Below, in pieces: positions 25,999 through 60,066 of a stretch of 64,000 nt of DNA. This DNA comes from Cytophagaceae bacterium. Lineage in GTDB: Bacteria; Bacteroidota; Bacteroidia; Cytophagales; Flexibacteraceae. The notes below the pieces were generated by a model. That model ran no database searches, was not told the origin of the DNA, and saw only the letters and a program-made list of their open reading frames with translations. Each line of letters begins with the position of its first letter. The stretch's first letter is position 1. The position numbers were made by a program, and so were the translations under genes. The stretch spans positions 248,001 through 312,000 of the forward strand of contig JAIXYP010000009.1 in NCBI GenBank assembly GCA_027490155.1, in the 5' to 3' direction.

Positions 25999-26055
25999 AA
26001 CAATACCATTTTCATGATCCTTGTTCATCTTTGGTTAAAAGGCAACCTACATCTA

Positions 26056-27540
26056 ATGAAAATCTCGTTCCCTACCCTACTTTTTATCCTAGTGATTTAT
26101 TTGTCCCCTCTAATGGGTATAGCTAAGGACGTCAATGTGCTGGATTATGGTGCTATTAACGATGGGAAAACACTGACAACCAAGGCACTGCAATCAGCAA
26201 TCGACGCCGCAGGCAATGCAGGGGGCGGAACTGTAACCCTACCACCAGGCACATACTATACAGGTACCATCTATCTGCGCAACAACACCTACCTAAACAT
26301 CCAGGGAGGTGCTACTATCCTTGGCAGCACCAATATTGCAGACTATCCATTACAAACAAGCCGTTGGGAAAGCCCCAATAACCTAAGACATTTGGTTTGC
26401 ACCCAAAACACCCACCATGTCGGGATAGTTGGTACTGGCACCATCGACGGCAATGGACCTGCCTTCTGGGAGCCAATCCAACCGATGCCGGACTGGATCG
26501 TGGGTAAGCCGATCAGGATCCCTCGTTATGTCGAGTTTACAAATTGTACCGACGTATTGATTAGGGACATAACGTTGACCAACGCCCCCGAGTGGACCCT
26601 ACATTTGTTTGGCTGCCAACGAGTTACCGTGGACAATATCCGGATCGAAAATCACCTTTTTGGGCCTAACAACGATGGCATAGACATCAGTGGTTGCCAG
26701 GATGTCCGTATTAGTAACTGCTATATTAAAACCTGTGATGATGGTATATGCCTAAAGACGCTACCAGAAAATAAGGCCTGCGAACGCATCACAGTTAACA
26801 ACTGCATCATCGAGACCAGTTGTGCAGCGCTCAAGATCGGCAACGAAAGCTACCATGATTTTAGACAGATTACCTTTAGCAACTGTGTCGTAAGCCGCAG
26901 CAGCCGCGCCATTGGCATCTATGCCGAAGATGGCGGGGATGTTGAAGACGTGGTCATCAGCAACATCGTCCTAGACAATAACGCACCCTTAATCCTGAAT
27001 CGTCCGATCCATATCAGTAACTTTCGCAAGGGAACCAAGGCGGGCATTATTAGCCACATCCTACTCCAAAACATCATCTGCCGTACCAATGGTCGTGTTC
27101 TGATCACTGCCGAACCAGGTAGCATTATTCGAGATGTTTCAATTGCAGGCCTTCGGATAACCTACCCCTTCATCGAGGATCCGTATACCATATCTGACAG
27201 TGCTAGAAGTGCGCAATACTCACCACGAAACAAAAATGCTCGGAAGCAACGTGCTGCAATTGTAGCCGAAGGGGTAGAACAACTAACAATTAAAGACCTA
27301 AGAGTCGAATGGCCGACAGTGCCAGTACCTGAAGCGTGGAGACAACCAGTTAAAATTGAGAATGGCTGGAAATACCGCACAATCCGCCCGAACTATGACA
27401 GGCCTCAAGCATGTACCTTCCAAGTTCTATGGGGTAATAACCTCAAAGACGCCGATCTCCACCTCGATGGGGTCACTTCTTCTAATGCAAAACTAAAGCC
27501 CTACACCCTCGAGAATAGCACCTACAGGTTAGTTAAGTGA
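26056..27540 (+). CDS. secreted GH28 family glycoside hydrolase (polygalacturonase-like)
   Basis: A 494-residue protein from the ATG at 26056. A signal peptide (about 1-24, MKISFPTLLFILVIY) is followed by a right-handed parallel beta-helix. The start VNVLDYGAINDGKT...ALQSAIDAA is the standard N-terminus of bacterial GH28 enzymes. The catalytic aspartates lie in GPNNDGIDISGC and CDDGICLKT. The usual GHG motif is not present in canonical form; the equivalent region reads LKIGNES. This subgroup more often acts on rhamnogalacturonan or other uronate polymers than on plain polygalacturonan. It is consistent with uronate use elsewhere in the window (GH88, uxaC), although not linked to those genes. 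Confidence 0.9.
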   Translation: MKISFPTLLFILVIYLSPLMGIAKDVNVLDYGAINDGKTLTTKALQSAIDAAGNAGGGTVTLPPGTYYTGTIYLRNNTYLNIQGGATILGSTNIADYPLQTSRWESPNNLRHLVCTQNTHHVGIVGTGTIDGNGPAFWEPIQPMPDWIVGKPIRIPRYVEFTNCTDVLIRDITLTNAPEWTLHLFGCQRVTVDNIRIENHLFGPNNDGIDISGCQDVRISNCYIKTCDDGICLKTLPENKACERITVNNCIIETSCAALKIGNESYHDFRQITFSNCVVSRSSRAIGIYAEDGGDVEDVVISNIVLDNNAPLILNRPIHISNFRKGTKAGIISHILLQNIICRTNGRVLITAEPGSIIRDVSIAGLRITYPFIEDPYTISDSARSAQYSPRNKNARKQRAAIVAEGVEQLTIKDLRVEWPTVPVPEAWRQPVKIENGWKYRTIRPNYDRPQACTFQVLWGNNLKDADLHLDGVTSSNAKLKPYTLENSTYRLVK

Positions 27541-42642: not shown

Positions 42643-44064
42643 CTAGAACTTCGGCAAGTCAAACCCAAAGTAGTTGGCGGCGTTGTGGTAGCAAATGTTC
42701 TCGACCAATTGTCCGAGCCAGATTTCGTCATTCGGCAGCTCGCCATTCTCGACATCGTTACCCAGTAGGTTGCATAGGATGCGGCGGAAATAGTCGTGAC
42801 GACTATAACTCAGGAATGAACGCGAGTCGGTCAGCATACCAACAAAACGGCTCAGCAAACCAAAGTTGCTCAGGGCGTTCATTTGGTCGATCATGCCTTG
42901 TTTTTGGTCTAAGAACCACCAACCTGAGCCATACTGAATTTTGCCAGCGACGGTCCCGTCGTTATAGTTGCCGATCATCGTGGCGAACAAGGCATTATCT
43001 GCTGGGTTGAGGTTGTAAAGGATGGTTTTGGCAAGTTTGTCATTGCTGTCAAGGCGATCCAAGAACTTAGCTAGGCTGCGGGCCATCGCAAAGTCACCGA
43101 TGGAGTCAAAGCCTGTGTCAGGGCCTAGTTTGCCAAGCAGACGGCTATTTGTATTACGGATTGCACCTAGGTGGAACTGTTGTGTCCAACCCTTGTCATG
43201 GTCAGCTTCGGCAAAATAGACCAACATATAGCTCTTGAACTGAAGGATCTCATGGGTGTGCAATTCATATCCATCACGGACTTTGCTGAAGATCCGTTTG
43301 ATGTCAGCCATGGTATAATCCTCGGCATAGACAGTCTCTAGACCATGGTCGCTCAGGCGGCAGCCATTATCATGAAAATGCTGGTGCCTATAGGCCAAGA
43401 CGTCCAAAAAGGTATTGAGGTCGCGAATGGTATGCCCAGAGACAGCCTCCAATTTATCTACGTAGGCATTAAAAGTGGTGGCACTTTCTGGCGACATGGC
43501 TTTGTCTGGCCGATAGGTGGGCAACACTTGGGTGGCACAACCATCTTGTTTGATTTTCTGATGGAAGGACAGGTCATCAGCAGGGTCATCGGTTGTGCAA
43601 ACGAGACGTACCTTGGCTTTGGCCATCAGCCCCTGAACGCTAAACTCTGGGGTCTGGAGCAGAGCTGTAGTTTGAGCATAGACCTCGTCAGCGGTGGTGC
43701 TATCGAGCAGAACATCAATCCCAAACGGATTTTTGAGCTCCATATGCGTCCAGTGATAGAGTGGATTACGCATGGTGTAGGGCACCGTTTTGGCCCATTG
43801 AGCGAACTTTTCGGCATCGGTGGCATCGCCAGTAATGAAGCGCTCGTTAATCCCGTTAGCCCGCATAGCCCGCCACTTATAGTGGTCACCGTCCAGCCAA
43901 ACTTTAGTAATAGTACTGAAGTTGCGGTCCTCAGCAATGATATCTGGTTGCAGGTGGCAGTGATAGTCAATGATAGGCATATCAGCTGCATGGTCATGAT
44001 ACAGCTTTTGAGCGGTTTTGGTCTCAAGCAGGAAATGCTCGTTCAGGAAGGGTTTGATAGCCAT
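42643..44064 (-). CDS. uxaC: glucuronate/galacturonate isomerase
   Basis: A 473-residue amidohydrolase-fold isomerase converting glucuronate to fructuronate or galacturonate to tagaturonate, the first step of uronate catabolism. The length is typical. Visible hallmarks are DYHCHLQPDIIAEDR near the N-terminus (metal-binding HxH), MLTDSRSFLSYSRHDYFRRI near residue 400, and CTTDDPADD. It is unusual that it lies between eboF and eboE. The next uronate genes (uxaB/uxuB, uxaA, kdgK) are absent here. Start ATG 44064. Confidence 0.96.
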   Translation of the reverse strand: MAIKPFLNEHFLLETKTAQKLYHDHAADMPIIDYHCHLQPDIIAEDRNFSTITKVWLDGDHYKWRAMRANGINERFITGDATDAEKFAQWAKTVPYTMRNPLYHWTHMELKNPFGIDVLLDSTTADEVYAQTTALLQTPEFSVQGLMAKAKVRLVCTTDDPADDLSFHQKIKQDGCATQVLPTYRPDKAMSPESATTFNAYVDKLEAVSGHTIRDLNTFLDVLAYRHQHFHDNGCRLSDHGLETVYAEDYTMADIKRIFSKVRDGYELHTHEILQFKSYMLVYFAEADHDKGWTQQFHLGAIRNTNSRLLGKLGPDTGFDSIGDFAMARSLAKFLDRLDSNDKLAKTILYNLNPADNALFATMIGNYNDGTVAGKIQYGSGWWFLDQKQGMIDQMNALSNFGLLSRFVGMLTDSRSFLSYSRHDYFRRILCNLLGNDVENGELPNDEIWLGQLVENICYHNAANYFGFDLPKF

Positions 44065-44202
44065 GTTTTGGGCGTAATTCTATACGGATTTGGATCCTTA
44101 GCTATTGCTTACTAGATCGTGGTTTCGGAAAGTCAAATATGGGCCAAAGGCTGCACAATGCAATGTGACCTGTGGCGTATTGTAATGGTCCTGCAAGGAT
44201 AT

Positions 44203-45402
44203 TTAGGAAGTAGCCTGCCAAACATCTTGCACCCAGTTGAGCTCCCTGGCAATGCTTTGCTGGATCGGTATCTGGAGGGCTATGGGCAAAATACCCCATG
44301 TGTAGGTCTCGACCTCTAGGATGGTGCCTGGTATATGGGCCTTAACGTAGGTGATCACCTCCCGCACTGCTGGTTGGGTACTGCTAAGGGGCCCAAAGTA
44401 TTCGGTAAAAAGCGGAACATGGTAGTGCGTGCGGAGTTCGGACCACAGGTCTGGGTTTTGGCTGCACCAGTCGAGGGCGGGACCAAGATCCGGAAACCGT
44501 TTGATTTTACCATTCTGGAGCAAAACAGCAGACTGATGGAGGTAGTTGGGTTCGTCAAAAGGCTGGAGCGTAGCAAGTCCCTGAGTATCCTTGGCGACAA
44601 GTGCCGCACTTAGCTGCACCCGACCAATGGAGATTCCAGCTTCGTCAAGCGCCTTGAGGGCCTCAACAACAGGGATATGTAACACAGCAAAATGGCAAAC
44701 ATCAAAACAAACTGCCACGTGGCGCTGCAATAACTGGAGAGCCTCCTCCTCATTACATTCGTAGCCCGACATCAGGACTTCCTTGCCATAAACCCATAGG
44801 TACTCCTGGAAGAAGGAAATAGTGTTCTGTACGTCATCTAGCAGGCCATCCGGCTCAGGCTCAAGCTCAAGTCGGATTAATTTGCTAGTGGATTGGTTGA
44901 GTTTAGCCGCAAAAACAACCCAGTGGCCTAGTTGGCGGGCAGCTGTTACGAGTGTTTCCCATTGGCGCATGGGCTCATCCTGAAACCAAGGAGCATAGCT
45001 GATAGGTGAGGTAGAGATACCCGCAACGGAAACCTCCTCAGGGAGAAGCTTGGCCAACAATTCAGCCAACTGGCAGGTATAGTCACGCCGTGAGGTTGTC
45101 GTCCAGTCTGGCTCATGGACTTTGTCCTTGACCACCATGCCATGAAAATCACCGTACGGGAATCCATTGATCACAGGTACAATCAGGCCTTGGTCGGCCA
45201 GCCAATGTTCAAATGCCGCCAAATGATCTGGTTGCGCAAGGTCTGCCGCCGCCGTAGCCGAAAGCCGTAATCCAAGCTGAGTTAGCTTCTCTTGGCTAAG
45301 CTTGGCCTGCAAACCAGGAATTTCGGTCTGCAGGACGGCAAAGTGCTCGGCCCAAGTAGTACCAGGGAAGATATTGGTGCAGAATGTTAGCTGTGGGGAC
45401 AT
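44203..45402 (-). CDS. eboE: EboE-like metabolite traffic protein (xylose isomerase-like TIM barrel)
   Basis: A 399-residue protein from the ATG at 45402, since the family begins close to TFCTNIFPG. It has the xylose isomerase/AP-endonuclease 2-like barrel. Characteristic EboE segments are TFCTNIFPGTTWAEHF, LGLRLSATAA, VINGFPYGDFHG and CFDVCHFAV. Enzymatic activity is unknown for the family. The ebo cluster is linked to precursor transport in cyanobacteria such as scytonemin producers. eboA, eboB, eboC and eboD are not in the window. A terminator-like hairpin separates it from the symporter gene upstream. Confidence 0.8.
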   Translation of the reverse strand: MSPQLTFCTNIFPGTTWAEHFAVLQTEIPGLQAKLSQEKLTQLGLRLSATAAADLAQPDHLAAFEHWLADQGLIVPVINGFPYGDFHGMVVKDKVHEPDWTTTSRRDYTCQLAELLAKLLPEEVSVAGISTSPISYAPWFQDEPMRQWETLVTAARQLGHWVVFAAKLNQSTSKLIRLELEPEPDGLLDDVQNTISFFQEYLWVYGKEVLMSGYECNEEEALQLLQRHVAVCFDVCHFAVLHIPVVEALKALDEAGISIGRVQLSAALVAKDTQGLATLQPFDEPNYLHQSAVLLQNGKIKRFPDLGPALDWCSQNPDLWSELRTHYHVPLFTEYFGPLSSTQPAVREVITYVKAHIPGTILEVETYTWGILPIALQIPIQQSIARELNWVQDVWQATS

Positions 45403-45497
45403 GAGGTGCCAGATTGGTGAATCCCCAATCTCCCCTGCAATATACACCCTACCCTACCCCTAGGGCAAGCAGAGCTATAAGGCTAGATCTAAAATAA

Positions 45498-45523
45498 CGA
45501 AGCCCAGCATTAACTGGGCTTCG
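45498..45523 (-). terminator. hairpin between the symporter gene and eboE
   Basis: CGAAGCCCAG - CATTAA - CTGGGCTTCG, a 10-bp perfect stem, 35 bp after the symporter stop codon. The tail on the minus strand (TTATTTTAG) is T-rich. It could attenuate transcription into eboE. Confidence 0.7.
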
Positions 45524-45557
45524 TAAGGATCTAATAATTAGGATCGGCAACAACTGA

Positions 45558-47165
45558 CTACCAGAACTTGACGTACAAGAACACCAAGGCAATCAGGATG
45601 GTTATGGCGCCAATATTGAAGATTGGACCAGTTTTGAACAGGCGTGAGCTGATATCGATCGATTTGGCCTTGTCCTCTTCGGTTTGGGCTTTAGAAAGTG
45701 AGGCTGCAATCATGATCGCACTCAGGATCAAGAAGCTATAGCCCATCCGGTCTAGGAAAGGGATCTCAGAAAGTGAAGGGGTAAACTTAAAGAGCAACGA
45801 GATTGGCAAGGTAGCCAAAGCAACTGCCAATGCACCAGTGGCATTGGCACGACGCCAGAACAAGCCAAACAAGAAGATTGTAAAGATACCAGGGCTGAAG
45901 AAACCAGTAAACTCTTGGATGTAGGTAAAGCCACCACCAAGCTTCTCGATGTTATTAGCAATTAGGATAGCAATAGGGATCGCAATCACTAAGGATAGGC
46001 CAGTTGTTACACGCCCAACATTAATTAGGTGGCTTTCGGACTTGTCTTTGCCGAACAATGGCTTGTAAATATCCATCGTGAAGATGGTTGCGATGCTATT
46101 GGTTTTGCTGCTGAGGGATCCGACAATGGCCGCAACCAATGCTGCGAAGGCTAAGCCTTTTACCCCTGGGAACAAAAATGTATTGAGCAGGTAGGGATAG
46201 GTTTCGTCTGCTTGTTTGATGATGTCACTAGCACCTTGTTCGCCTGCCTTAAACAAACCAGCAGCGACAATACCCGGTACAACCACGATCAGTGGCATGA
46301 GAAGTTTCAGAAAACCGGCAAGAATAATGCCGTTCTGGGCCTCTGTTAAGCTTTTAGCTGCAAGCGCACGCTGGGTGATGTATTGATTAAAGCCCCAATA
46401 GTTAAGGTTCACGACCCACATAGAGCCTATCAAGACTGTCAACCCTGGTAGATCAGAGTAGAACTCATCACCTTCAGAAAAAATCATGTGGAACTTCTCG
46501 GGCATCTCAGTGGTCATACGGGTTACACCAGCCATGATACCACCATCATGTCCGTAGGCATTAAGCGCTAAATAGGTCGTGATCAGTCCACCTAGAACAA
46601 GGAAGGTGACCTGGATCGGATCTGTAAAAGCAATGGCTTTAAGACCACCAAAGACTGTGTAGAGAGCACTGAAAACCGCAATACTGACGACTGCTATGCT
46701 AAGATCAACGTCAAATACTTTATGGATACAGATTGCACCAAGGTACATGATGGAAGTAAGGTTAACCAGGACGTACAAGGCTAGCCAGAAAACTGCAAGG
46801 CTAGTAGAGACCCTGCTATCATAGCGCATCTTCAAGAACTCAGGCATCGACATGATGCGTTTTTCTAGGAAAACTGGGACGAAAAACTTACCTACGACGA
46901 TCAAAGTAGCTGCTGCCATCCACTCATAAGTAGCGATAGCGAGGCCCATCTTAAAGCCTGAGCCAGTCATACCAATCAGCTGCTCTGCGCTGATGTTGGC
47001 CGCAATCAGCGATGTGCCGATAGCCCACCATGGCAGGGTGTTACCAGCCACAAAATAGTCTCTAGTGTCCTTCTTTTCGCCTTTTTTGCTGCGCGACACA
47101 TACAAGGCAATGCTGACGACAATCGCACAGTAGCCTAAGAATACCGCAATGTCAATTTGATTCAT
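45558..47165 (-). CDS. sodium/sugar symporter (SSS family, SglT-like)
   Basis: A 535-residue transporter from the ATG at 47165; upstream codons of the open frame are polar. About fourteen hydrophobic segments are present. DYFVAGNTLPWWAIGTSLIAANISAEQLIGMTGSGF near the N-terminus is the SGLT-type signature region containing Na+- and sugar-binding positions. NLNYWGFNQYITQRALAAKS follows later. Glucose, galactose or a uronate are plausible substrates. Its position upstream of eboE and uxaC suggests uronate or sugar uptake (inference). A palindrome lies 48 bp upstream. Confidence 0.9.
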   Translation of the reverse strand: MNQIDIAVFLGYCAIVVSIALYVSRSKKGEKKDTRDYFVAGNTLPWWAIGTSLIAANISAEQLIGMTGSGFKMGLAIATYEWMAAATLIVVGKFFVPVFLEKRIMSMPEFLKMRYDSRVSTSLAVFWLALYVLVNLTSIMYLGAICIHKVFDVDLSIAVVSIAVFSALYTVFGGLKAIAFTDPIQVTFLVLGGLITTYLALNAYGHDGGIMAGVTRMTTEMPEKFHMIFSEGDEFYSDLPGLTVLIGSMWVVNLNYWGFNQYITQRALAAKSLTEAQNGIILAGFLKLLMPLIVVVPGIVAAGLFKAGEQGASDIIKQADETYPYLLNTFLFPGVKGLAFAALVAAIVGSLSSKTNSIATIFTMDIYKPLFGKDKSESHLINVGRVTTGLSLVIAIPIAILIANNIEKLGGGFTYIQEFTGFFSPGIFTIFLFGLFWRRANATGALAVALATLPISLLFKFTPSLSEIPFLDRMGYSFLILSAIMIAASLSKAQTEEDKAKSIDISSRLFKTGPIFNIGAITILIALVFLYVKFW

Positions 47166-47212
47166 CGGAAAATTTGGGTAAAAAAATGTTCGGGATAATT
47201 CGGTCATGGTTG

Positions 47213-47225
47213 GCATTGGCAATGC
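47213..47225. promoter_or_regulatory. palindrome upstream of the symporter gene
   Basis: GCATTG-G-CAATGC, with perfect 6-bp arms around a single centre base, 48 bp before the symporter start codon. A possible operator for the symporter-eboE-uxaC-eboF cluster. Confidence 0.35.
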
Positions 47226-47501
47226 TAAACGAACCAGCACCCAATGCCACTTGTCTGCAATTATATTACTAATTGTCTAAAAAGCAGGCACATTAGCTCA
47301 AAACTTCGCAATTGGCCACTTTTTATGAGCCTCTGCAGGACTTTAGGCATCATAGATGGGATGTCTATGAAAAGCAGAAAATCAAAAGACCCCACACAGC
47401 ATTACCTAAATGAGGTCAATGGTAAGGGTAAATAATCAGCCCAGTAAAGAAAAAGAAATTAGACAATCGTGGTCAAGCACGAATGGCTGCAGATAGTGGG
47501 C
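47226..47501. other. intergenic stretch between symporter and serA genes
   Basis: No supported gene. The open frames here have no family resemblance. It presumably carries the symporter promoter. Confidence 0.4.
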
Positions 47502-52138: not shown

Positions 52139-54487
52139 ATGACGATAACAATTAGACTTGTGGGCCTAGCAACCATTGTAGCACTAGGGATCCAATATAG
52201 TAACCTTTCGGCCCAGCCAGCTGCAAAAAAAACAGCAGTAACCCTACCCTACCAAAACGCAGCCCTTACACCTCAGGCTCGTGCAGAGGACCTTTTGGCT
52301 CGAATGACGCTGGAGGAAAAAATCGGCCAGATGACCCAGATTGCCACCACAGAAATCAACAAGGTGGACAATCCCAAAACTAAAGTCGATCGGTTTAAGC
52401 CCTATTTGGAAAAAGCCAAAGCCGAAAAACTAATCAAGGAGCACAATATTGGTTCGTTCTTGGCAGCATTTGCCGTTTCACCACAGGATTGGTACACCTT
52501 TAGCAATGAGCTCCAAAAGGTCAACATGGCTAACAGCCGCCTTGGTATCCCGATCATTTATGGCAATGACAATGTCCATGGGGCCAACTATGTTGCTGGT
52601 GCGACCATTTTTCCACAACCAGTCAACCTTGCAAATACGTTCAACCTGCAGTATGCCGAGGCCATGGGACGGATCACTGCCACCGAAATCAGCGACCTAG
52701 GCCAACCATGGAACTTTGCTCCTATCCTGGATATCGGGCGTAATCCTTACTGGCCTCGTCAATACGAAACATTTGGAGAAGACACCTATTGGGTTGGTCA
52801 GCTAGGAACTGCCTACATCAAGGCTTTGCAAACTGCCGAAGCTGCCAAACCATACAAGATTGCAGCCACTGCTAAGCACTTTATGGGCTATTCGGACCCC
52901 AAGTCCGGTTGGGATCGCAGCCCGTCGGTCATTGGTGACCAAGAGTTGCGTGAGATTTTTTTGCCACCGTTCCGCCAAGCAGTCAATGCAGGTGTCAAGA
53001 CCTTCATGATCAATAGTGGAGAGGTCAACGGTGTTCCGATCCATGCCTCAGCCAAATACCTGACCGGTATGCTCAGGAACGAACTCGGGTTTGACGGAGT
53101 CATCGTTACAGACTGGGCAGACATCTTGCAACTGATCGGCCAGCACCATGTCGCCCATAACGAAAAAGAAGCTACGCTGATGGCGCTCAAAGCTGGCATC
53201 GATATGTCTATGACAGCCAGCAGCACTACATTCTGCACCGTGACCAAGGACTTGGTAAAGGAAGGATACCTCTCTGAGTCGGTTATCGACAAAGCAGTAT
53301 TGCGGATTTTGCGCCTTAAGTTTGACCTAGGACTGTTCGAAAATCCGTATCCACGCAACGATCGATTTGCCCGCATTGGTAGTAAGGCCAATAAGCAAGA
53401 GGCACTAGAGGCAAGTCGCGAAAGCATCGTCTTGCTTAAGAATGACGGAATCTTGCCAATCAAAACTAGCCCTAAAAACATCCTAGTCGTTGGCCTGCAA
53501 GCCAATAGCAAACGTAACAACGCCGGTGGCTGGACCATCAACTGGAACGGTGGCAATGAGGACCAATTCCCGACTTCGATCCCTACCCTATTCGCTGCGG
53601 TACAGGCAGGTTTCCCGAATGCCAAAGTGGATACATCAGCTGTGGTAGTGAACGGCACTGGCAAACTTGACCCAGCCAAACTTGCAGCTGCGGACTTGGT
53701 CATCATGGCCGTTGGGGAGGAGCCTTATGCCGAAGGTATGGGCAACATTCAGGACCTAAACCTACTTACTGACCAACAACTACTGATCAACGAAGTACAG
53801 GCTAGTGGCAAACCAAATGTTTTGGTAATGTGGGCTGGTCGTCCTCGGCTCATTACCTCATTTTTGCCCAAAACCAACGCCTTTATCCATGCTGGTTTAC
53901 CGGGCGAGTTTGGCACAACTGCCTTGGTCGAAATTTTAGCTGGCAAGGTCAATCCATCAGGAAAATTGGCCATCACCTACCCAGGAGAGGTTGGCCACAT
54001 CACACCATACAATGCCCGCATTCATGACCGCTACTCCAACCTGTTTGCCTTCGGCACTGGACTGAGCTACACAACGTTTCAATACATCGACTTGCGCGTT
54101 TCTGATAGCTCCGTGAACCGTAATGGAAGCATCAAAGTGTCTGTAACAGTTCGTAATACTGGTGCGCGCGAGGGTAAAGAAGCTAGTCTGCTCTTTGTCA
54201 AAGACGAGGTCCGGACGCACAGTACGCCATTGCTCAATTCGTTGAGAGGTGTAGTTAAAGAAGTTTACAAACCTGGTGAAGCCAAAACAATCACGTTTGA
54301 GCTTAAGCCAGAACGGGATTTCAGCTACCCTGACGAGGTGGGAGGTATTCACCTTGAAGAAGGCTATTTCGTGATCGAGATTGGCGGTCTAAAAAAACGG
54401 GTATCACTTCGGGCACCAGGGAACGGGCTCAACCAAAAGGACTTTAAGCTCAAAAATTACCTCCAAGAAGATATCGGCACCAACTAG
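52139..54487 (+). CDS. secreted GH3 beta-glucosidase-like glycoside hydrolase
   Basis: A 782-residue exported retaining glycosidase. The signal peptide covers about 1-26. The N-terminal GH3 barrel (about 45-390) has the substrate-binding KHFMGYSD and the nucleophile D325 in GVIVTDWADI. The alpha/beta sandwich (about 420-640) contains MAVGEEPYAEGMG and should supply the acid/base glutamate. A C-terminal FN3-like domain (about 670-750) includes GLSYTTFQY. This is the BglX-type architecture. It is the first gene of an operon with GH88, an unknown secreted protein and an esterase. The substrate is probably a beta-linked oligosaccharide with uronic acid side groups (inference). Confidence 0.95.
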   Translation: MTITIRLVGLATIVALGIQYSNLSAQPAAKKTAVTLPYQNAALTPQARAEDLLARMTLEEKIGQMTQIATTEINKVDNPKTKVDRFKPYLEKAKAEKLIKEHNIGSFLAAFAVSPQDWYTFSNELQKVNMANSRLGIPIIYGNDNVHGANYVAGATIFPQPVNLANTFNLQYAEAMGRITATEISDLGQPWNFAPILDIGRNPYWPRQYETFGEDTYWVGQLGTAYIKALQTAEAAKPYKIAATAKHFMGYSDPKSGWDRSPSVIGDQELREIFLPPFRQAVNAGVKTFMINSGEVNGVPIHASAKYLTGMLRNELGFDGVIVTDWADILQLIGQHHVAHNEKEATLMALKAGIDMSMTASSTTFCTVTKDLVKEGYLSESVIDKAVLRILRLKFDLGLFENPYPRNDRFARIGSKANKQEALEASRESIVLLKNDGILPIKTSPKNILVVGLQANSKRNNAGGWTINWNGGNEDQFPTSIPTLFAAVQAGFPNAKVDTSAVVVNGTGKLDPAKLAAADLVIMAVGEEPYAEGMGNIQDLNLLTDQQLLINEVQASGKPNVLVMWAGRPRLITSFLPKTNAFIHAGLPGEFGTTALVEILAGKVNPSGKLAITYPGEVGHITPYNARIHDRYSNLFAFGTGLSYTTFQYIDLRVSDSSVNRNGSIKVSVTVRNTGAREGKEASLLFVKDEVRTHSTPLLNSLRGVVKEVYKPGEAKTITFELKPERDFSYPDEVGGIHLEEGYFVIEIGGLKKRVSLRAPGNGLNQKDFKLKNYLQEDIGTN

Positions 54488-54619
54488 GCCAAACAGCTGT
54501 CTTACTTTGGTCAAATTCAAACTCCTTCAATCTCAACCAAAATGATTAGGACTCAAGACGCTGACCTTTATTGCGTCTGCCGATCTACTCCGATCCTTAC
54601 CTTCCCCCCTATTGATCAG

Positions 54620-55897
54620 ATGAAAGTCTTGATATCTAGTACAATATTATCTAAAGTAGCACTAGTATTTGGCTTAGTATTAGTCTTCGGAGCTAGCTCC
54701 GGATTTGCTCAAATTGGTGCAAGTTCAACTAGTAAAAACAGCAAAGGTGCCACCATGTCCCGTGAGGAGCGCATGCGCACCATGCCTGCACGTCGACTTG
54801 ACGCCATCAAACTGCTGCAACATTGTGAGACCAAACTCAAGATGTCCCTAGGACAACTGAAAGACTCAAGTGCCTACCCTCGGAATATCGAGCTCGGAGG
54901 CACCAAATGGAAAACAACGAACTATAAGGACTGGACTGGTGGATTTTTCCCTGGCCAGCTCTGGTATATGTACGAAAGCACCAGTGATGAGTATTGGAAA
55001 ACCCAAGCCATAAAGTGGCAAAAGGCGATGGAACCAGCAAAATCGATTACGTGGACTCATGATCTAGGCTTCATGGTTTATAACTGTTATGGTCATGCTT
55101 GGCGCTTGACTCGAGATCCAGCATACAAAGAGGTACTATTCACTTCAGCTGCAAGCCTTGATAAACTCTACCACAACAAGGTAGGGACCACCAAAAGCTG
55201 GACTTGGCGCAAAAACTGGATGCACCCTACCATTATCGACAATATGCTAAATCTGGAGCTATTGTTCTGGGCTGGCAAAAATGGTGGTCGTCGTGCTTTC
55301 TATGAACATGCATTTCAGCATGCCACAGTAACCCAACACGAGCACCTAAGGCCAAACTACACCTCCTACCATGTTGTTAACTATGACACTGCTACCGGGA
55401 AACCCTTACACAAAGTTACTGACCAAGGCCTAGCTGACAGCAGTACTTGGGCACGCGGTCAAGCTTGGGGTGTTTACGGCTTTGCCATGTCACACCGCGA
55501 GACCAAAAACATCAAGTTCCTGGCTACTGCAAAAAAAATGGCTGAGGTCTTTATGGCTAATCTTCCAGAAGACAATATACCCTATTGGGACTATAATGCC
55601 CCTCATGAAGCTAGCACCCCACGCGATGCTAGTGCAGCAGCCATTGCAGCAAGTGGCATGCTCGAAATCGCCCGTCTATCAAAGGACCCTATCGATCAGC
55701 TCACCTACCGTGAATATGCGGTCAAACTCCTGACGGCCCTAAGCAGCCCACAGTACTTGGCACCTGACAACAGCCCAGCAATCCTGCAGCATAGCACTGG
55801 GAGTATGCCCCACAAAAGCGAAATAGATGTCAGTCTTATCTATGCTGACTATTATTACGTAGAAGCCCTAATCCGCCTAAAGGATATGCGCTATTAG
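54620..55897 (+). CDS. secreted GH88 unsaturated glucuronyl hydrolase
   Basis: A 425-residue enzyme from the ATG at 54620; the open frame upstream lacks a signal peptide at its start. A signal peptide (ending FAQ) is followed by an alpha6/alpha6 barrel. The two catalytic aspartates of GH88 are recognisable as D148 (THDLGFMVY) and D207 (IIDNMLNLEL). It hydrolyses the 4,5-unsaturated uronic acid that polysaccharide lyases leave at the non-reducing end. A lyase should therefore act upstream, yet no known lyase is encoded nearby. The gene that follows is a candidate. It is 132 bp after GH3, with 64 bp to the next gene. Confidence 0.93.
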   Translation: MKVLISSTILSKVALVFGLVLVFGASSGFAQIGASSTSKNSKGATMSREERMRTMPARRLDAIKLLQHCETKLKMSLGQLKDSSAYPRNIELGGTKWKTTNYKDWTGGFFPGQLWYMYESTSDEYWKTQAIKWQKAMEPAKSITWTHDLGFMVYNCYGHAWRLTRDPAYKEVLFTSAASLDKLYHNKVGTTKSWTWRKNWMHPTIIDNMLNLELLFWAGKNGGRRAFYEHAFQHATVTQHEHLRPNYTSYHVVNYDTATGKPLHKVTDQGLADSSTWARGQAWGVYGFAMSHRETKNIKFLATAKKMAEVFMANLPEDNIPYWDYNAPHEASTPRDASAAAIAASGMLEIARLSKDPIDQLTYREYAVKLLTALSSPQYLAPDNSPAILQHSTGSMPHKSEIDVSLIYADYYYVEALIRLKDMRY

Positions 55898-55961
55898 TCA
55901 GAAGGTAGTTTCTATTGACCCCGCCTAAACTTGTTTACCATTGTCCTTTCTTGTTCTGCTG

Positions 55962-57890
55962 ATGGATCATAATCCTTTCAAAGCCTTACACAGTTTGCTC
56001 AAACAAGCACTAGTAGCCAGCCTTGTTGTGCTTGGTCTCCTTGTGTTGTCTGATAGGGCGGCGGCGCAATCAGCAGATGTTCAGCCACGGATGAAACTGG
56101 CCTACCTTCGGGATTCGCTGATCGGCGGGGTTATTAAAAAGGAGCTAGCCTTTAGCGTCGATGAGCTTGGAAAACCTGGCGATCCGATACCAAAGTACAT
56201 CTTGGGCAACAAGGTCGGTGGCGACTATATGCTGATGAGCATCGGCGAGACAATGGCGTCAGTCGAACAATTGACTGGGATAAAGGGCACTAATCAATAC
56301 CCCTTCATTAAGTTCCTTAAGCCTTGGATGTTAGCAGAGGCTCCTGTGGCACACACCTTTGGCCAGCTCTTCATGATCCGGTCATTACTGATGTACCAAT
56401 CCAAAGGAGCCAAACCCGTCAAGAGCCTGAAGGGTAACCCAATTTGGGAATCAATGACAGGCGAAGAACAAAAAACCATCAGCGCTGGACTAGATTTCCG
56501 CCGGAGCTATGACGTACTAAAACGTGAACCAAGCAATGGAAGGCCACTAAACTATTTAGCAGTTGGGCTTTTGATAGGTGCCTATGGTAAGTCGATAGGC
56601 ATTGACCCAGATCCGGAGGCATTGGACTACCTGGCTAATAAATGTGCCGATATTATTTACCAGAACAATGGCATCCTGGACGATGACAAAGGTGGACGAG
56701 GCCGTTATGACCGTTATGGTCGTGAGTTCAACCACTTCACATGGGAGGCACTTACCTTGTTAGGAAAAAGTGACTTGCTTGTTAAAATCAAACCTGCTGT
56801 CATCAACAGTAACCAGATTTGGTTCGACATGGTCAATCCTGCCACAGGTTATGGCTATCCTTATGGTCGTAGCCTACAGAATAGCTGGGATGACACGTTC
56901 GAACAATGTGGTTTTTTAGCTACCTATCCCGAGCTAAGCCCAGCTCCACTCCCGCTGATCGCTGCGCTATACGCTAAGGCCTGGGACCATTATATCACTA
57001 ACCAATATAACCCGACCAAACACCTGAACCGGATGCTAGAACCTGGCCGAGGTACTTATAGCTACGCAAGTACTGACCGCATCTGGGGCTATACTGTCCA
57101 TACGTTTGGCAAGGTAGCATTGAGCGCCCAGCTATTGTTTGCGGCCCTCGAGAAAAACAAGATCTCATCCTGGACCATCAAACCAGAACTACCACCAGTA
57201 AGTCGGTTTGTGCCAATCACCCACAAAAACAAGAGCAAAAAGATGGGTTGGTGGATTGTCCGGAACCCAGGAAACTACTTTGTGCTACCCATCGTCGGGA
57301 GCTTCAAAAATAGTGCAACGTCTGACTACCTCCCGATACCCTACGGATTTGAAGGCATACAGGTACCCGTGGCCCAGCAGGTGCCAACCATGGTGCCTTT
57401 CCTGAGCCTTCCTGATGGTACGACCCTGTCAACTGCAGATGGAGCTGACTCGATTTATCTTAACCAAGACGGCAATAAACTCACGATCGTTTGGCGGAAC
57501 TTGGTTGATGTCAAGGGCAATAACAACAAGTTTGGCATCGGCGCCACCGCGAGCTGGACCTATCAAGACCAAGAGATCATCAACGAAATCAGTATCACGA
57601 GCATGGCCAACACCGTCATAAGCAAGTTGCAATACTGGGTGCCGACCAGCTACAACTATGCCGATTTAGCGAGCGGATCTGTTTTCAATACAGATGGCAA
57701 ACAACTCTACGTCAACTTAACAACCGACTGGGACTGCCAACTCATGCTAATGTCACCTGGCCATACCGACCTTGGCAAAGGCCCTTTTGCCCCAATTCCG
57801 CTCATAATGCAATGGACTGGGACAGATGTGCCACTATTGCAGGACAAAACCTACAAACTTAAAGTTTCCTTACGCAGTGCTGGCTTCTAA
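55962..57890 (+). CDS. unrecognised secreted protein, helical barrel plus beta domain, in the carbohydrate operon
   Basis: A 642-residue protein from the ATG at 55962. The signal peptide covers about 1-36 (VASLVVLGLLVLS, ending AAAQ). The first ~390 residues are mainly helical with aromatic-rich repeats (FNHFTWEALTLLGK, GYGYPYGRSLQNSWDDTFEQ), suggesting an alpha/alpha toroid. The remaining ~250 residues are beta-rich (WWIVRNPGNYFVLPIV, KLTIVWRNLVDVKG). This two-part layout recurs in polysaccharide lyases and in DUF2264-like proteins. I see a weak resemblance to DUF2264 only. It sits directly after GH88, which needs lyase products. Candidate catalytic residues are the Tyr/Arg/His cluster around residues 215-275. 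The function is unknown. Confidence 0.85.
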   Translation: MDHNPFKALHSLLKQALVASLVVLGLLVLSDRAAAQSADVQPRMKLAYLRDSLIGGVIKKELAFSVDELGKPGDPIPKYILGNKVGGDYMLMSIGETMASVEQLTGIKGTNQYPFIKFLKPWMLAEAPVAHTFGQLFMIRSLLMYQSKGAKPVKSLKGNPIWESMTGEEQKTISAGLDFRRSYDVLKREPSNGRPLNYLAVGLLIGAYGKSIGIDPDPEALDYLANKCADIIYQNNGILDDDKGGRGRYDRYGREFNHFTWEALTLLGKSDLLVKIKPAVINSNQIWFDMVNPATGYGYPYGRSLQNSWDDTFEQCGFLATYPELSPAPLPLIAALYAKAWDHYITNQYNPTKHLNRMLEPGRGTYSYASTDRIWGYTVHTFGKVALSAQLLFAALEKNKISSWTIKPELPPVSRFVPITHKNKSKKMGWWIVRNPGNYFVLPIVGSFKNSATSDYLPIPYGFEGIQVPVAQQVPTMVPFLSLPDGTTLSTADGADSIYLNQDGNKLTIVWRNLVDVKGNNNKFGIGATASWTYQDQEIINEISITSMANTVISKLQYWVPTSYNYADLASGSVFNTDGKQLYVNLTTDWDCQLMLMSPGHTDLGKGPFAPIPLIMQWTGTDVPLLQDKTYKLKVSLRSAGF

Positions 57891-58011: not shown

Positions 58012-60066
58012 ATGTACACAACCATCCCTACCATCAAACAGTCAGTATATTGGAGCTTGCCTCGTCTGGGCATTATTCTGCTGCTTTTTTTAAGCATCAA
58101 CTCCAACCTTACTGCTGCACCTACTGCCAAAGATCCGGCCCTGAAAGTTGCACGAATTTTTACCCATCAAGCAGTATTGCAGCGAGACCGCCCGATTCCA
58201 ATTTGGGGCACCAGCAAACCTAAAGAAACAGTCGTGGTCAGCATCAATGGGCAGAAAAAAACAACTAAAGCCGATCCTGCGGGGTACTGGAAAGTTTTGT
58301 TAGGTGCTATGCCAGCTGGTGGACCTTATTCCGTCAGGATTAGTACTAAGAAACAAGAGTTGGTCCTGAACGATGTGCTCATTGGTGAGGTCTATATCGC
58401 CAGTGGGCAAAGCAATATGGAGTGGCGGCTGAAGCAAACAGTCAATAATTACAAAAAGGAGATCGAAGAGGCCAAGTATCCTAACATTAGGTACATCAGT
58501 ATCACGAACAACTTTGCGCCTAGCCCGCAAGCAGATCTGCTAGATACCTTTGCTCTTTGGAAGGCTGTGAGCCCCGAAACATCACAGGAGATGTCCGCTG
58601 TAGCTTACTTCTTTGCCCGCTCAATTCACAAAGACTTTAAAATTCCTGTCGGGATCATCAGCTCCGAATGGGGTGGCACAGTTGCTGAGGCCTGGACCAG
58701 CCAAGAGGCCCTGAGGGCAATGGGAAATGATTTTGATGAAAAGCTAAATGAGCTTAACGCCAAAGGCAAGGATATTGATACCTACAAAGCCCGCAGCAAA
58801 GCCATGATCGATCAGTGGATCAAGGCCATGCGCGCTGCTGACCTTGCTTCGAAACCCGAGAATGGCCAGTATTGGACGGATGCTGGATACGACCCAGTCA
58901 AAAATCCGGCTTGGAAACAAATGAAAGTCCCAGGAAAGTGGGAAAACAATGGTCTCCCGTCATTCGATGGCATCGTTTATTTCCAGACTTCTATTAAGAT
59001 CGAGGCGCTTCCGACATCGCCAACAGTTAAACTCTCCCTCGGTCCTATAGATGACATTGACTCCGTTTGGATCAATGGTATCAAGGTAGCAGGTGGCGAA
59101 GGCTGGGACAAACCCCGCACTTATGCAATACCTATCAGTATCTTAAAGACGGGCACAAACACGATAGTGGTTAAGGTAACGGACACGGGTGGTGATGGTG
59201 GATTCACTGGCGAGGCAGCTGATATGTACCTCGCATTAGGTAACAAAAACATTTCTCTGGCCTATGATTGGAACTATCGTGTTGCCACTGATAATAGCAA
59301 ACTGCCCCCCAAGCCCGAAAACATCAATACCCAAAACACTCCAACGGTTTTGTTTAATGCCATGATCAACCCTATCATACCCTATGCCATCAAGGGTGTG
59401 ATCTGGTATCAGGGAGAGTCAAACGCAACAAGGGCCAAACAATATCGGCAATTGTTCCCGACCATGATCAAGGACTGGCGGACCCGCTGGGCACAGGGTG
59501 ACTTTCCGTTCCTATATGTGCAGCTAGCTAACTACCGCCTAGAAACAGACAAACCCGTAGATAGCGACTGGGCAGAGCTGCGCGAGGCCCAAACGATGAC
59601 CCTTGCATTGCCTAACACTGGTATGGTTTGCACAATAGATATTGGAGAGGCGAATGATATACACCCCCGGAACAAGCAGGATGTAGGTGCAAGGCTATAC
59701 CAAGCCGCTAAAAATGTAGTATATGGACAACCCGTTGTGGCAGCAGGGCCAATGTACAAATCGCATGAGGTGAAAGGCAACAAGGTCTATATAACTTATA
59801 ACAACACCGACGGCAAACCGCTAGAGGTACGAGACAAATATGGCTACCTGAAGGGCTTTGCTGTTGCAGACGCTAATAATGTTTGGCATTGGGCCAAGGC
59901 AGAGGTGATTGGCCAGCAAGTGGTGGTCTATGCTGAAGGTGTTAACAACCCAACAGCAGTGCGTTATGCATGGGCTAACAACCCAGGTGAGCTGGACCTC
60001 TATAATGCTGTAGGTCTGCCAGCGGTGCCATTCCGGACAGATAAACTGCCAGGGATTACTAATTAA
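58012..60066 (+). CDS. secreted sialate O-acetylesterase-like carbohydrate esterase
   Basis: A 684-residue exported SGNH-type esterase. A signal peptide or anchor lies at about 15-36. The nucleophile is S134 in IASGQSNMEW. The block WYQGESNATRA and the catalytic Asp/His in DIHPRNKQDVG (about residue 550) complete the SASA family pattern. A jelly-roll, galactose-binding-like insert sits at about 300-420 (MKVPGKWENNG, DDIDSVWINGIKV). It removes acetyl groups from sugars, and in this operon it more likely deacetylates a uronate- or xylan-type glycan than sialic acid (inference). It is the last gene before a strong terminator. Confidence 0.9.
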   Translation: MYTTIPTIKQSVYWSLPRLGIILLLFLSINSNLTAAPTAKDPALKVARIFTHQAVLQRDRPIPIWGTSKPKETVVVSINGQKKTTKADPAGYWKVLLGAMPAGGPYSVRISTKKQELVLNDVLIGEVYIASGQSNMEWRLKQTVNNYKKEIEEAKYPNIRYISITNNFAPSPQADLLDTFALWKAVSPETSQEMSAVAYFFARSIHKDFKIPVGIISSEWGGTVAEAWTSQEALRAMGNDFDEKLNELNAKGKDIDTYKARSKAMIDQWIKAMRAADLASKPENGQYWTDAGYDPVKNPAWKQMKVPGKWENNGLPSFDGIVYFQTSIKIEALPTSPTVKLSLGPIDDIDSVWINGIKVAGGEGWDKPRTYAIPISILKTGTNTIVVKVTDTGGDGGFTGEAADMYLALGNKNISLAYDWNYRVATDNSKLPPKPENINTQNTPTVLFNAMINPIIPYAIKGVIWYQGESNATRAKQYRQLFPTMIKDWRTRWAQGDFPFLYVQLANYRLETDKPVDSDWAELREAQTMTLALPNTGMVCTIDIGEANDIHPRNKQDVGARLYQAAKNVVYGQPVVAAGPMYKSHEVKGNKVYITYNNTDGKPLEVRDKYGYLKGFAVADANNVWHWAKAEVIGQQVVVYAEGVNNPTAVRYAWANNPGELDLYNAVGLPAVPFRTDKLPGITN

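Follow-up and report, generated by a model that had tools for sequence, protein, structure and literature searches.

A rare protein encoded beside a GH88 gene in a Cytophagaceae genome: a candidate enzyme for the formation of 4,5-unsaturated uronates

The usual reading of an unsaturated uronyl hydrolase of family GH88 or GH105 is that it partners a polysaccharide lyase. In the window (the whole stretch of 64,000 nucleotides that was analysed), a GH88 gene is followed by a gene of no recognised family, here called X, and the locus raises the question of which protein makes the unsaturated uronate for the GH88 enzyme. The features concerned are as follows.

52139-54487, + strand: GH3 glycosidase (Pfam)
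54542-55897, + strand: GH88 unsaturated glucuronyl hydrolase, the only copy found in the genome (PDB match); the likely start is a later ATG at 54620, read by eye
55962-57890, + strand: X, 642 amino acids, candidate enzyme forming 4,5-unsaturated uronates (ORF analysis; no significant family match)
55962-56066, + strand: signal-peptide-like start of X, residues 1-35, with an AAA/QS cut (read by eye)
57204-57887, + strand: C-terminal beta-rich region of X, about residues 415-642 (from a poor full-length model; no profile match found)
58012-60066, + strand: SASA-type carbohydrate esterase (Pfam), with a GH2-N-like stretch under the Pfam cut-off

The frames of the GH3, GH88, X and esterase genes, all on the + strand, are spaced 54, 64 (counted to the ATG of X) and 121 bases apart. 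The order is kept in a sister species (locus L001: GH3 end, GH88, X at 93% identity, esterase), which bears out the gene row proposed by the first-pass annotation. The GH88 protein matched 3wiw, whose title reads unsaturated glucuronyl hydrolase specific for heparin, at E 8e-88 and 1vd5 at E 2e-55. When the alignment was read by eye, D88 (also named in a PDB title) and D149 of 1vd5, which we take to be its catalytic residues, were both aligned with Asp in the window protein. The Pfam family Glyco_hydro_88 (PF07470) misses this protein (54542-55897) although 3wiw matches it at 8e-88; GH88 proteins like the window copy may escape Pfam-based annotation.

No polysaccharide lyase was detected by Pfam, whose coverage of PL families is incomplete, among 41 window proteins (40 of the 59 ORFs of at least 120 amino acids, plus one of 117; most of the other 19 overlap scanned ORFs). 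To that extent the earlier remark that no known lyase is encoded nearby stands. The single lyase-named Pfam match, at 26014-27540, is to the beta-helix domain in a GH28 protein. A UxaC glucuronate isomerase is encoded some 5 to 10 kb ahead of the GH3-GH88 row, at 42643-47240 on the - strand, with genes for an EboE 'metabolite traffic' protein and for a sodium/solute symporter next to it.

The frame of X is open over 55941-57890 (+) with TTG as first codon; the in-frame ATG at 55962 gives 642 residues, and the ATG of the sister-species counterpart lines up with this start region. Comparison with the sister species over 642 codons gave a dN/dS of 0.083, indicative of purifying selection and close to the values for GH88 (0.050) and the esterase (0.069); X is thus a working gene. 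The N-terminus carries a basic stretch, then a hydrophobic core, then AAA/QS, as judged by eye. Searches returned no Pfam family for any of three X sequences at E<=10, no NCBIfam family for X at E<=1, and chance-level PDB sequence matches (best E 1.1). The description of X as a secreted protein of no known family is therefore upheld. The promoter-like pattern TANNTTTG occurred 46 times against 43.4 expected. The proposed helical N-terminal and beta-rich C-terminal halves do appear in a single-sequence AlphaFold model of full-length X, which is helical as far as residue 398 or so and has strands from 415 onwards; at pLDDT 34.5, however, this model is very poor, and it was set aside as useless.

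The first-pass annotation started from the premise that GH88 depends on a lyase, which is incomplete: the unsaturated end can also be made by a dehydratase (PMC12269599 and PMC8511951, each in part), and in the same portions of these papers two kinds that act on saturated ends to give the GH88-type substrate, P29_PDnc and GH154, are unrelated in sequence. The GH154 enzyme BcGDH of Bacteroides caccae is described in part of PMC12269599 as a glucuronate dehydratase, acting on saturated chain ends to prime them for GH88, with Y229 as proposed catalytic base and Y289 as proposed acid. Ten of its alanine mutants (E74, R78, N176, N177, W178, F181, Y229, R285, Y289, Y354) had no detectable activity, in an assay whose substrate the authors caution is poor (same part of PMC12269599). 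All ten letters were found in the 9o4u sequence at a single numbering offset.

The genome of the window encodes a DUF2264 protein that matches PF10022 at 1e-90 and 9o4u, 9nwf and 8oi4 at E<1e-67, and on these matches DUF2264 is equated with GH154. Its gene (G000:C39 / L025:1357-2688, +) is on another contig, between transaldolase-like and M16-peptidase-like genes (by eye) and not adjoining GH88. Pairing of DUF2264 with GH88/GH105 is common: a Glyco_hydro_88 domain was found in the 1.5-kb flanks or fused at 7 of 19 loci (L023, L024, L028, L032, L035, L036; fused in L027). Twenty loci, some from the same genus, had been fetched and 19 opened (L034 was left out); among the neighbours, seven ORFs of at least 380 amino acids were scanned with Pfam, six of them with Glyco_hydro_88, the remainder being judged by eye or unread. 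The fusion (L027:679-3726, -) is a chain of 1015 amino acids with Glyco_hydro_88 (33-367) followed by DUF2264 (389-742), a hydrolase and a dehydratase in one protein. At L030:2703-3971 (-) a DUF2264 gene adjoins one for a protein with a heparinase II/III-type lyase domain, which places a dehydratase next to a lyase.

Profile comparisons were carried out with hhalign. The X family (3 rows) against DUF2264 (19 rows) gave a score of 38.7 (P 7e-4, probability 26%) as one collinear match of 135 columns over residues 161-307 of X, joining N197, D250-Y252 and G302-S304 to DUF2264 motifs. The score was reached by 0 of 400 column shuffles (maximum 29.4) and by 0 of a further 200 (maximum 30.4; Gumbel P 1.1e-4), and 33 other window proteins, taken as single sequences, scored 23.5 at best. 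X scored 16.7 against PL17/heparinase, 15.4 against GH88 and 17.6 against GH105, while DUF2264 scored 26.2, 17.6 and 25.5 against heparinase, GH88 and GH105; with just 5, 2 and 3 rows in the control alignments, these low scores are weaker evidence than they appear. PDB matches of the five-row heparinase/PL17 control are PL17 and heparinase III. With X reversed, the scores were 15.9 (DUF2264), 25.9 (heparinase) and 21.2 (GH88).

The match to DUF2264 is weak in absolute terms and fragile. Its hhalign probability is 26-34% at best and falls to 1.8% with seven DUF2264 rows; as single sequences X scores 29.3 and its distant relative (G027, below) 17.0; five random subsets of DUF2264 rows gave 28.4-38.4, the set without long forms 31.6, seven short rows 25.9 and the two long rows by themselves 18.8 (P 0.25). 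Pairwise BLASTP between X and DUF2264 found nothing, and the C-terminal region of X has no profile similarity to the C-terminal parts of the long DUF2264 proteins or heparinase. With that weight, the N-terminal half of X looks like a remote relative of DUF2264/GH154, one of the families that the first-pass annotation had named.

The register of X against the functional residues of BcGDH was taken from a trimmed MAFFT alignment of 20 rows (3 X and 17 of the 19 DUF2264 rows); an untrimmed full alignment misplaced the region after GRS and was set aside.

56550-56555, + strand: N197-Y198 of X, against N177-W178 of BcGDH (hhalign, MAFFT alignment)
56676-56717, + strand: LDDDKGGRGRYDRY (residues 239-252), with Y252 against the proposed base Y229 (hhalign, MAFFT alignment)
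56865-56882, + strand: GRSLQN (residues 302-307), with R303 against R285 and N307 in place of the proposed acid Y289 (hhalign, MAFFT alignment)
57063-57065, + strand: Y368, against Y354 (MAFFT only)

The equivalence of Y368 and Y354 comes from MAFFT alone, the global mode of hhalign having yielded nothing usable for X and DUF2264. Four of the ten BcGDH sites are kept in all three X sequences, namely N177 (N197), Y229 (Y252), R285 (R303) and Y354 (Y368), and the letters of the first three are identical in 17/17 DUF2264 rows. The other six are changed: W178 to Tyr, F181 to Val and Y289 to Asn, while E74, R78 and N176 are not kept. The Y289 column holds Asn307 in 3/3 X sequences against Tyr in 17/17 DUF2264 rows; the N176 column is Asn in just 6 of these 17; and at the E74/R78 pair of the LExxGR motif, in the least secure stretch of the alignment, X has Tyr and Asn and the G027 relative Glu and Leu. 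Eighteen of the 25 columns that never vary in the 17 DUF2264 rows are constant in the three X rows too, nine with the same letter, which is supporting rather than independent evidence since MAFFT maximises such matches. X is not filed as GH154, because Y289 and five other BcGDH residues are absent. H354 is the only invariant His of the three X sequences, which have none after residue 415.

A model of residues 39-415 from the mixed alignment reached pLDDT 71.9 and pTM 0.80, its fold being partly circular because that alignment held 17 DUF2264 rows. Foldseek with this model placed two GH154 structures, 8oi4 and 9o4u, at the top (E 0.013-0.036, TM about 0.5) and PL35-type lyases next, with no match at E<=0.001.

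X is rare. It was found in 3 of 98 relatives: its own genome (G000), the sister species (G001, counted as one genome with the sister-species contig match) and G027, from another family of the order, at 32% identity. A contig scan gave the sister species as the only relative, and in a phylum sample the X sequence matched 1 of 395 genomes. Two X genomes were present among 290 genomes of the order and three (G000, G001, G027) among 390; no other relatives were found in these two samples, one 14.9-bit match (G547), unopened, being treated as chance. Within the family of G027, X occurred in 1 of 18 genomes, and searches of plasmid and viral contigs found none. The relatives, phylum, order and family samples overlap one another. 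A phylum profile search gave 10 further matches at 11.8-16.3 bits, and the three loci opened look SusD-type, peptidase and histidine kinase by eye.

The X relative of G027 (L059:8314-10170, -) lies 3 kb from a GH88 gene (L059:4060-5283, +; 3wiw E 3e-82), with three other genes in the gap, and neither a DUF2264 nor a Hepar_II_III_C match was found in this genome. A search with the window GH88 found one GH88 in each of the three X genomes, within 3 kb of X. The tie between X and GH88 is thus supported, in two lineages rather than three, since the two genomes of the same genus are not independent.

Taken together, these results put at about even the chance that X represents a rare family, new to science, whose members form 4,5-unsaturated uronates and would act as exo-dehydratases rather than as lyases. 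Two points favour the dehydratase: the closest relatives of X have that activity, and G027 combines X with one GH88 while giving no match to DUF2264 or, among lyases, to the heparinase-type domain. Against this, the DUF2264 gene of the window genome could supply the GH88 instead of X. We infer the activity, substrate, direction of attack and mechanism of X as follows. It would be a periplasmic or secreted enzyme on uronate oligosaccharides, carrying out the same step as the GH154 glucuronate dehydratases: elimination of the group carried at C4, most likely the free 4-OH of a glucuronate at the end of the chain, with release of water. The resulting 4,5-unsaturated uronate would be removed by the neighbouring GH88, and GH3 and the esterase would trim the remainder. 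N197 and R303 may hold or neutralise the carboxylate and Y252 may take the C5 proton; with the second Tyr of GH154 absent, the leaving group would be protonated by Y252 or by a residue specific to X (e.g. H354 or Y366). By the loss of Y289, X is not GH154 in its mechanism residues, though it may work alike. The fuller proposal, that X founds a rare carbohydrate dehydratase family which split early from GH154, works with one Tyr where GH154 has two and, in a small number of genomes of the Cytophaga order, supplies a single GH88, is offered tentatively, at well below even chances. A literature search gave nothing recognised as X, which has no name to search by, and no paper naming DUF2264.

The first-pass annotation had favoured a polysaccharide lyase. 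The signal-like start, the GH88 link in two lineages and the DUF2264-like N-terminal half agree with it, but the nearest family dehydrates a chain end and does not cleave the chain. The elimination at C4-C5 is common to dehydration and lyase cleavage, which keeps a lyase in play, and the conserved Asn, Tyr and Arg of X would fit either. It is nevertheless rather unlikely that X is a true lyase, whether endo- or exo-acting, which breaks the glycosidic bond at uronate C4 and belongs to a new family with a toroid and a beta-sheet. A toroid with an antiparallel beta-sheet is indeed the plan of PL35, PL8, 12, 15, 17, 21, 23 and 39 (PMC12269599, in part), Foldseek rows 6 and 10 are the PL35 lyases 8khv and 8khw and row 7 (9o3q, 'chondroitinase') is probably BcPL35, the missing Y289 would suit a single-tyrosine mechanism, and the 41 Pfam-scanned window proteins contain no recognised lyase. 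Against it, the kinship suggested with the heparinase/PL17 group (PL12/15/17/21) finds no support, with 16.7 against the five-row alignment, no PF07940 match and a higher, chance score of 25.9 for reversed X. PL8 kinship likewise found no backing in Pfam (no PF02278 match of X); a PL8 search of three genomes gave no match but its control was silent too, so it is uninformative. PL35 has H387, whose mutant is inactive (PMC12269599, in part), where X has no invariant His (after residue 415), and the enzymes of the nearest family are exo-acting dehydratases.

A toroid enzyme of other chemistry, for instance a glycoside hydrolase or epimerase acting on the oligosaccharide of GH88, is improbable. 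The VIA-align Z list for the 39-415 model is topped by cellobiose 2-epimerases (up to 19.1), with GH154 at 18.0-18.2, GH88 3wiw at 17.8, and GH105, GH76 and N-acylglucosamine 2-epimerases within a few units. However, such ties reflect a common fold, and the comparison supports a predicted (alpha/alpha) toroid in general with no chemistry singled out; the sequence profile and residue register, with four functional residues kept, point to GH154. It is very improbable that X is a non-catalytic glycan-binding or surface protein that resembles DUF2264 by chance or as a dead relic: X differs from BcGDH at six of the ten functional residues and the hhalign probability is 34% at best, but the charged and aromatic motifs LDDDKxGRGRYDRY and GRSLQN do not vary among the three sequences, even with the distant one at 29-32% overall identity, conservation typical of active sites.

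Of the known systems set beside X, the candidate dehydratase, the heparinase II/III and PL17 group (PF07940) has a toroid-plus-beta plan and uronate elimination (PMC12269599, in part) but no Pfam match or profile similarity to X. The PL35 glycosaminoglycan lyases (8khv, 8khw) share the toroid and beta-sheet plan and follow GH154 in Foldseek; they are endo-lyases with a catalytic His in the beta domain, where the three X sequences, aligned without a PL35 row, have no invariant His. The ulvan oligosaccharide dehydratase P29_PDnc has the same proposed role, dehydration of a saturated uronate end for an unsaturated uronyl hydrolase, with D248, K303 and R230 as proposed key residues (PMC8511951, in part); set beside X by description alone, it is unrelated in sequence to GH154 according to part of PMC12269599. 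Should X prove to be one more, distant kind of dehydratase, loci with GH88 and no lyase would be open to a different reading.

GH154/DUF2264 (PF10022; BcGDH 9o4u and 9nwf; BT_3677; 8oi4) differs from X, which has no PF10022 match, has Asn for Y289 and does not keep E74, R78 and F181; the C-terminal regions of two long DUF2264 proteins show no similarity to that of X (P 0.2). It resembles X in the remote profile, in N177, Y229, R285 and Y354 and in partnership with GH88, and BT_3677, a long GH154 form, is of similar length (construct residues 30-673) with a second domain present. If the dehydratase reading of X is true, setting it against GH154 would test how far the two-tyrosine mechanism proposed there is indispensable.
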